Shown here: one piece after another, positions 57,679-61,600 of the stretch | Numbering within the stretch: the stretch's first letter is position 1 | Layout of the letters: the number at the start of each line of letters is the position of its first letter | Assembly: GCF_000311785.1 (NCBI RefSeq) | Contig: NZ_HE978544.1 | Coordinates: forward strand, 160,183 to 224,182 | Source of the DNA: Brevibacillus massiliensis | GTDB lineage: Bacteria > Bacillota > Bacilli > Brevibacillales > Brevibacillaceae | Reading direction: 5' to 3' | Length of the DNA: 64,000 bases | The notes under the pieces: generated by a model | Database searches by the model: none | Told to the model about the DNA's origin: nothing | The model's input: the letters and a program-made list of their open reading frames with translations, nothing else | Program-made: the position numbers and the translations under genes

Positions 57679-58602
57679 TCAAGAGCAAACGCAAGCAGCT
57701 GTTACTGCCGCCTTCTCGCTCGCGTCCAAGCCCAGCTCCCCGGTGCAGTGCCCTTGCGGGGGGCTGACCAGTTTGTTCTCAACGCTGTTGTAGACAAAAA
57801 ACACATTGGAACGCGGGTAGGGGGTGATGTTGCCATTGGAGCCGTGCATTACGTTGCAGTCAAAAAGCGTGACCGTCCCCGCCGGTCCGACGGCCGTATC
57901 GATGCCGTGCTGGTCGACCAGCTTTTGCAAGCTTGCTTGATCCGGCACACCGTATTCCTGCTTGCGGAGCGATTGTTCGTAATGCGCATCCGGCGTTCTG
58001 CCTACGCATGTGATGAATTTCTTGTGGGAGCCAGGGATGAGCAGCAGGGGCCCGTTGAAATGGCGATTCTCCTCCAGCGCGATGGAGCAGCTCAACGCCC
58101 GCATTCGCGGCATGCCATCCTCAACGTGCCAGGTCTCAAAATCGGAGTGCCAGTAAAACTCCTTGCCCGTAAACCCTTTTTTGTAATTGATCCGGGACTG
58201 GTGCACGTACACTTCGCTGCCCAGAATCTGCCTGGCGATTGCCAAGAGCCGGGGATGCTGCGACAGCTGACGAAAGACCTCGTTGTCGCGATGTACGGCA
58301 AAAATCGAGCGAATCTCACGGCTCTGCGGCTCACGGATCACTTCCTTCCGCTCCGTTTCCCGGTTTTCCCGCCACAGCTTCTGCAGCTCATCCCGAAACG
58401 TCTTGACCTCCTCAGCCAAAAAGAAGCTTTTCAGATTGAGGTATCCGTTTTTCTCATAGGATGCGAGCATATCAGCATCCAGCGCGGAAGTGCCTGAACT
58501 CGCGTCCGATTAGACGACCGGGTCCTTTCGTTCGATGATGCCAGGTGTATCCTCGATACGGGATGGATAGCAATCTTCCATAACGGCGCAGCGTTGGTTC
58601 AT
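57679..58602 (-). pseudogene. ectD: Ectoine hydroxylase with an in-frame stop near the N-terminus
   Basis: A Fe(II)/2-oxoglutarate dioxygenase that would hydroxylate ectoine to 5-hydroxyectoine. The frame from ATG 58602 reads MNQRCAVMEDCYPSR and RKDPVV, then TAA at 58512-58510, then continues to the normal end (307 codons in total). The EctD signature FYWHSDFETWHVEDGMP with iron ligands H and D, and the distal His in MHGSNGNITP, are intact. A restart at ATG 58470 would give a 263-residue protein lacking the first 44. Known EctD proteins keep a DPVV-aromatic motif here, so a Tyr/Trp codon may have become TAA. It may be inactive or partly functional. Confidence 0.85.
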
Positions 58603-58648: not shown

Positions 58649-59034
58649 TTATTCAATCAAGGGATATACTCCGTTCTCATCGTGTACCTCGCGACCTGTC
58701 AGCGGCGGATTGAACACGCATACCATGCGCATCGTGCTTTTCGCCCGCAGGTAATGCTTCTCGTGGCCGCTTAAGGCGTACGTCATGCCCGGCCGAATCG
58801 GATACGTTTCACCTCCGACCACCTCGATCTCTCCTTCACCCTCGATGCAGTACACGGCCTCAAGGTGGTTCGCGTACCAGATGAACGTTTCCGTACCGGC
58901 TTTGATCAGCGTATCGTTCAGGGCAAAACCCATGTTGTCTTTTTTCAACAGCAGTCTTCTGCTGTTCCATGTAGGTGTGTCAACTTCGTCCTCTGTTCCG
59001 ATGATATCCTGCAAATGCTTTACAATCATTTTGC

Positions 59035-59041
<7 letters not shown>
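58649..59041 (-). CDS. ectC: Ectoine synthase
   Basis: A 130-residue cupin that cyclises N-gamma-acetyl-diaminobutyrate to ectoine. The start is either ATG 59041 (AGGAG upstream, overlapping the ectB stop) or ATG 59029, which gives the family's usual [16 protein letters not shown]. The conserved [22 protein letters not shown] with metal-binding residues, and GHEKHYLRA are present. It lies between ectB and ectD. Confidence 0.95.
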
Positions 59042-60847
<1,806 letters not shown>

Positions 60848-61014: not shown

Positions 61015-61079
61015 AAAAAGTCGACGAACCGCTGCCGTAGGAGAAGGACTGGCCAACCCGGCAAGCAGATGCGTCGACT
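61015..61079 (-). terminator. Terminator of the c-di-AMP riboswitch before ectA
   Basis: On the minus strand AGTCGACG at 61079-61072 pairs with CGTCGACT at 61026-61019, with inner pairing (CTTGCC/GGCAGC region), followed by TTTTT at 61019-61015. A second hairpin with GTACGC/GCGTAC ends lies just upstream (61085-61125). This layout is that of a transcription-terminating expression platform. Confidence 0.75.
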
Positions 61080-61159
61080 GGTTTTACACTTGGGTACGCC
61101 GGCTGCCGCCGCAAAAGAGCGTACACAAGAGATCAATGATTTTGGAAAAAGAAATCTGC

Positions 61160-61285
61160 TTTAGCCGACGAGGTTAGCTGACGGGTAGGATGGCAGAGAC
61201 GCATCCCTTCTGCATGCGCAGAATTAACCCCAAAACGTGGTTCCCCCGCTTCCGTTGCAAAAACGGAACTAGGCCCGCTATGTGA
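61160..61285 (-). promoter_or_regulatory. ydaO-class c-di-AMP riboswitch upstream of ectABCD
   Basis: The minus strand carries the class landmarks in order: AGCGGGGGAACCACG, TTGGGGTTAATTCTG, AAGGGATGCGTCTCTGCCAT with CCTACCC, and the highly conserved closing CCGTCAGCTAACCTCGTCGG. In known members c-di-AMP binding turns genes off by termination. A terminator lies about 80 nt downstream and ectA follows. This would let ectoine synthesis rise when c-di-AMP falls, as in osmotic stress. Confidence 0.88.
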
Positions 61286-61600
61286 TTGTTTTTTCGCTCG
61301 CTCTCCTTTTCATCCGACTGGGGTAAACATGGTTTGTATGTTACCATAACATCAAAATAGGCACACCCTCGGTAATCCGTTCGATTTTCCCTTCTGGGCC
61401 CCTCTCATCCCATCAACTGGAAATATCAGCCCTATGCAGAAAATTCCGCCCAAATCCTGCCATCTTTGGCCAGACTGTTAAAATAGTTCACGCAATTCAA
61501 ACGCTTAGAAAGAATTCCTTTGTAACCTTTTCGTAACGATATTTTCCACCATCTCTTTGTATACTTTCAGGTAAGGGACCGGCCATCCCGCAAGCGCCGC
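61286..61600. other. Non-coding region between the riboswitch and the stalk-domain gene
   Basis: No gene is supported on either strand. It should hold the promoter of the ectoine leader (minus strand; an A+T-rich stretch lies near 61330-61360) and, on the plus strand, the missing 5' end of the stalk-domain gene. No repeat was noticed. Confidence 0.4.

Follow-up and report, generated by a model that had tools for sequence, protein, structure and literature searches.

A predicted c-di-AMP riboswitch with its own terminator ahead of the ectoine genes of Brevibacillus massiliensis

Introduction

Ectoine, one of the major compatible solutes, is also made industrially. A locus in a stretch of 64,000 nucleotides from Brevibacillus massiliensis (NZ_HE978544.1, hereafter the window) raises the question of whether its supply can be set by c-di-AMP, a messenger of salt and potassium status. 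To our knowledge, most of the described control of osmolytes by c-di-AMP concerns transport. That osmoprotectant genes form a target class of the ydaO-type riboswitches, as the preliminary description of this DNA had it, is acknowledged in the literature: a review (PMC7288161) refers to Barrick 2004 and Block 2010 for the placement of ydaO elements near osmoprotectant synthesis and transport genes, and in Dehalobacter a c-di-AMP riboswitch terminates the transcription in vitro of an osmolyte-precursor synthesis gene (PMC9337991). Text searches and co-mention papers, which do not extend to the targets listed in Block 2010 and Nelson 2013, gave no c-di-AMP riboswitch at ectoine genes. What appears to be new here is ectoine as the target, whereas the class, the osmoprotectant target type and a tested case for another osmolyte were already known.

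We consider it highly likely that a ydaO-class c-di-AMP riboswitch controls the transcription of ectABCD (Table 1) by termination and is OFF at high ligand, and c-di-AMP would then very probably control the ectoine supply directly.

Table 1. Features of the ectoine locus, as positions in the window
Feature	Position	Strand	Remarks
Conserved promoter element, ~110 bp	61335..61460	minus	ends in -10-like TATGGTAACAT (61348-61338)
c-di-AMP riboswitch aptamer (ydaO-yuaA, RF00379)	61152..61285	minus	cmscan, model 1-134
Closing strand CGUCGGCU	61163..61170	minus	P1/pseudoknot 3' side, also putative antiterminator 5' strand
Intrinsic terminator	61015..61079	minus	left arm AGUCGACG 61079-61072; right arm CGUCGACU 61026-61019; U-tract to 61015
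ectA, diaminobutyrate acetyltransferase	60332..60847	minus	TIGR02406, 188.8 bits vs cut-off 120.6
ectB, diaminobutyrate transaminase	59035..60320	minus	TIGR02407 on both fragments; frameshift ~60171-60150
ectC, ectoine synthase	58649..59041	minus	NF009806, 192 bits vs cut-off 128
ectD, ectoine hydroxylase	57679..58602	minus	TIGR02408, 353 bits

The ectoine operon

According to the NCBIfam matches, ectA, ectB and ectC follow one another in order on one strand, with ectD next, and the models were matched above their cut-offs except for the N-terminal part of ectB, which sits in another frame. The ATG of ectA, at 60847, has a good Shine-Dalgarno sequence, AAAGGAGGTGAG, just 5' of it. An ectABCD operon had been described behind the terminator, and the four genes, their order and the minus strand hold, but the operon is not intact here. 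A tblastn comparison with intact EctB places the change of frame at 60171-60150, within homopolymer runs, and in ectD the comparison with intact EctD and the sequence itself reveal an in-frame TAA at codon 31 (58512-58510), with a later possible start ATG at 58470. Other genes of the window, near 54-56 kb, also look broken by eye. The lesions in ectB and ectD may be assembly errors or true decay, and presumably this strain does make ectoine.

The lesions also fit a different reading, which we regard as unlikely although it has to be taken seriously, namely that a real riboswitch precedes a decaying operon, ectB and ectD being pseudogenes in this strain, so that the output of the switch would be lost here and kept in relatives. 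The separate and apparently intact riboswitch-led ehu uptake operon kept in the same genome would agree with such a loss. However, the aptamer, the closing strand, the terminator, the Shine-Dalgarno sequence and the promoter element are all intact, homopolymer runs are typical sites of sequencing errors, and the broken appearance of other window genes suggests errors of assembly.

Directly 3' of ectD, a Cobalamin riboswitch (57645-57470, minus strand, 72 bits) lies 5' of bluB (57402-56740), which encodes 5,6-dimethylbenzimidazole synthase.

The aptamer and its sub-type

Over the whole window, the RF00379 covariance model finds a full-length match at 61285-61152 with 69.5 bits, compared with a gathering threshold of 38 (E 4.8e-14). 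The preliminary description had recognized all ydaO-class landmarks including the closing segment, and it was correct in place and kind, the interval 61015-61285 being exactly the aptamer plus the terminator. In the consensus alignment, the class core (GGGGGAACCA, GGGGU-AAU and CCCGUCAGCUAACCUCG) is present together with the closing strands of P1 and the pseudoknot, no non-standard pairs are marked, and a single core letter is off, with GUUAAU for GUGAAU. Judged by its sequence, this interval is a true member of the established c-di-AMP riboswitches and brings a terminator of its own. It shares with the members of RF00379 at kimA, ktrAB, kdp and cell-wall hydrolase genes the fold, the core, the pseudoknot closing segment, the downstream terminator and the predicted OFF logic, and unlike these it has compatible-solute biosynthesis as its target.

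Near ligand site 1, the aptamer differs from the common consensus. Where the common RF00379 form has GUGAAU and CCGAA, it has GUUAAU and CAUCCUACCCG, and the non-common letters, at the GUGAAU, UAGGG and CCGAA positions, are shared by the leaders of its riboswitch type. These differences could mean that ligand site 1 has drifted, with weak binding of c-di-AMP or a different ligand and the same terminator control of ect, and 40-44-bit matches with a changed AGCUAACC core 5' of ectA in one other genus point the same way. We think that such a variant is very improbable, since the same form stands 5' of kdpA and kimA-like genes, which are classical c-di-AMP targets, and since the reference RNA of known structure has GUUAAU as well. 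When the ligand-contact nucleotides of the solved structure (listed in PMC7288161) are compared, 17 of the 20 unambiguously aligned positions are identical, the reference sequence used for this agreeing with 27 of the 28 published contact letters. We infer that the window's aptamer binds c-di-AMP.

An osmolyte-specific aptamer subclass had also been considered and was dropped, because the GUUAAU/CAUCCUACCCG form is not confined to osmolyte genes, as its occurrence at kdpA and kimA-like genes demonstrates. The low-scoring leaders of the other genus (L058, L059 and L060; RF00379 only 40-44 bits) lie directly 5' of ectABC and have AGCCAGCC or a shorter sequence in place of AGCUAACC, with the terminator and the promoter element retained; they may be degenerate or altered-ligand switches. 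A Dehalobacter-like tandem was sought upstream of the aptamer, and Rfam at permissive thresholds gave no match to Na+-I or any other riboswitch there. A JPX_1 match (E 0.5) was taken as chance, this being a eukaryotic lncRNA family.

Terminator and proposed switching

The terminator that had been described after the aptamer is borne out by a strong hairpin at 61079-61019, which folds at -26.5 kcal/mol and is followed by a U-tract ending precisely at 61015. Its left arm can alternatively form 8 bp with the closing strand (-11.3 kcal/mol, a value reached by 0.5% of shuffled arms), so that terminator and antiterminator compete for the same strand in mutually exclusive pairings. In folds of the growing transcript, computed with an energy model without pseudoknot and without ligand, 8/8 closing-strand bases are paired with the left arm when it has just emerged, a mixed alternative fold appears at intermediate lengths, and in the full leader, with the right arm out, the terminator forms and 7/8 closing-strand bases pair with the 5' side.

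The expression platform was compared among 13 leaders of the same type, comprising the window, 8 other ehu/ect-linked and 4 opuC-type leaders, with the arms registered by hand. In the terminator, 94.2% of the pairs are standard and 13 cells have both sides changed, although the leaders are related and such pair-change counts overstate independent events; covariation amounts to 0.424, whereas shuffles give 0.261 and slid arms no more than 0.15. For the antiterminator, 90.6% of the cells are paired in 12 distinct leaders, as against 10-64% when slid. The changes are one-sided here, the closing strand being invariant throughout the set, and most of those in the left arm interchange G-C with G-U or U-A with U-G, so that the antiterminator pair is retained alongside that of the terminator.

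As the fold model omits the pseudoknot and the ligand, the direction of the switch is deduced from the geometry and from tested members of the class such as that of Dehalobacter (PMC9337991), both of which point to a ligand-OFF terminating switch. At low c-di-AMP, as under hyperosmotic or low-potassium conditions, CGUCGGCU would pair with the left arm, the terminator would be blocked and the ect genes would be read. At high c-di-AMP, with turgor restored and potassium plentiful, the ligand would hold the closing strand in P1 and the pseudoknot, which would leave the left arm free, and the terminator would form and stop transcription. This physiological timing is what we would expect. That the switch controls ectoine synthesis directly is something that we infer from sequence, and both ectB and ectD seem damaged in this assembly.

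The lysine 2,3-aminomutase Na+-I/c-di-AMP tandem of Dehalobacter (PMC9337991) likewise combines a c-di-AMP aptamer and a terminator at an osmolyte-synthesis gene, with a closing strand that pairs with the left shoulder of the terminator, but in that case the product is N-epsilon-acetyl-beta-lysine, with a Na+ aptamer farther upstream, whereas the genes of the window are for ectoine and the search for a Na+ riboswitch gave none. The c-di-AMP riboswitch of Bacillus thuringiensis kdpFABC (PMC6488665) also acts on the transcription of an operon for osmotic and potassium homeostasis; it concerns potassium import, in contrast to the organic osmolyte synthesis encoded in the window.

The apical loop of the terminator, AUGGCCCUC or near it, is conserved (L049-L053, L061, L097-L100), and its complementarity in several leaders to GGGCC, the invariant 5' strand of P1, might provide an additional antiterminator contact. 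For the relatives, this pairing was set aside, as the invariance of GGGCC in the group leaves no covariation evidence.

Recurrence among Bacilli

Of 399 genomes of the class, 46 gave an EctA match; one further member of the family was added, and the resulting 47 genomes were all searched with RF00379; an EctA scan of genome contigs returned only three distant matches. A coordinate comparison places a riboswitch 5' of ectA, on the same strand and within 4 kb, in 14 of the 47 ectA-bearing genomes and in six families (counting G108, whose EctA match is under the curated cut-off), where a rough chance expectation for the arrangement is 0.2% per genome. It is direct in five of them, 267-478 nt from the EctA match (the window, G034, G091, G244 and G252), and indirect in nine, 3.0-3.9 kb upstream (G005, G026, G017, G033, G010, G072, G088, G318 and G108). 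In the family to which the window belongs, all seven genomes with ectA show the arrangement. The other 33 of the 47 sampled Bacilli carry ectA without a riboswitch near it, and the link is therefore clade-specific. The recurrence in 14 genomes reinforces the link between c-di-AMP and ectoine.

Among the indirect loci, the one of G005 was checked in full: EhuB, EhuC, EhuD and EhuA, the importer of ectoine and hydroxyectoine, lie between the riboswitch and ectA with matches above the curated cut-offs, and EctD and an aspartate kinase come after ectC. G072 likewise has a confirmed EhuB, and the remaining indirect loci are alike in ORF layout. In G072 and G318, the aptamer of the ehu-ect operon is of the commoner type (GUGAAU or GCGAAU, CCGA), while the others have the GUUAAU/CAUCCUACCCG form or its derivatives; since two aptamer sub-types thus precede ehu-ect operons, the riboswitch has probably been recruited to ectoine genes at least twice. 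Besides its riboswitch-led ehu-ect operon, G318 has a c-di-AMP riboswitch 5' of a lysine 2,3-aminomutase-like gene (L139, contig C6), comparable to the Dehalobacter case.

Predicted regulon and probable origin of the locus

The genome of the window has eight RF00379 copies and three diadenylate cyclase domains. The copies are found at ect, at ehu on another contig, at two kdp-like loci, one of them in tandem, and at three cell-wall genes, the kdp and cell-wall targets having been assigned from translated ORFs. The tandem consists of two c-di-AMP aptamers 5' of a kdpA-like gene on contig C9 (L003, 1501-1963), and the second kdp-like locus, on contig C5 (L002), has a single aptamer. In relatives, the riboswitch is also found 5' of opuC-type betaine transporters and, judged from translated ORFs only, 5' of an OpuA-like gene and aspartate kinase.

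The window's ect leader has the terminator type of the riboswitch-ehu-ect operons of its family, whereas the genome's own ehu uptake operon, which occupies a separate site and is led by a c-di-AMP riboswitch of its own, has a leader with another terminator that resembles one from a different family. The arrangement in relatives is riboswitch-ehuBCDA-ectABCD-aspartokinase. The ancestor of the locus most likely lost the ehu block, which left the riboswitch directly 5' of ectA, and the simplest reading is that the own ehu operon was acquired separately.

As the same leader drives ehuBCDA first in relatives, its position close to ectA may be a by-product of that loss, and the element could be a relic of the ancestral operon with a hairpin at 61079-61015 that no longer responds to the aptamer; this we hold to be the least probable reading, given that the closing strand and the left arm pair at 8/8 positions, among the better ones in the set, and that G034 keeps the same direct arrangement.

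Upstream promoter element

A conserved element lies upstream of the aptamer, and no good -35 was found by its -10-like TATGGTAACAT. Leaders carrying it are the window, L074-L089 and L164-L169. The element is almost indel-free with fixed spacing, 14 leaders showing 52% identity in register and 23-29% when slid, and its conserved positions recur with a period of 10.25 bp (permutation p 0.0004, and 0.003 over all periods tried), as is expected for a protein on one face of the DNA. A structured RNA was judged unlikely, in view of the almost indel-free spacing and the conservation at the helical period of DNA.

A sequence-only model of the element (R1) finds leaders on which it was not trained, namely that of the ehu operon of G034, where no riboswitch is nearby (E 1e-11), those of opuC-type and aspartate-kinase (ask) genes, at E 6e-10 to 0.01, and that of G167 ectA, again without riboswitch (E 0.004). 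The least expected side result is that ectoine and betaine-type operons have the element in common, whether or not a riboswitch accompanies it. It looks like a putative activator site, or an array of such sites, common to compatible-solute operons.

Osmotic control of ect transcription is also found in Streptomyces venezuelae, where MtrAB activates ectoine production (PMC13189361); in contrast to the leader described here, this is a protein two-component system of an actinomycete, with no c-di-AMP riboswitch reported at ect. For these Bacilli, we tentatively propose, as a possibility on which we would not yet rely, a two-input AND-NOT gate for the supply of compatible solutes, in which phased activator sites over a weak promoter would be bound by a putative osmotic-stress regulator and be followed by the c-di-AMP OFF riboswitch, and which would be common to ectoine synthesis and uptake and to betaine-type uptake operons.

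Biological meaning

The phased element offers a handle on the putative osmotic regulator. A c-di-AMP switch on both the synthesis and the uptake of ectoine in one genome would make a simple circuit, in which one messenger could set the pools of potassium and of organic osmolytes.
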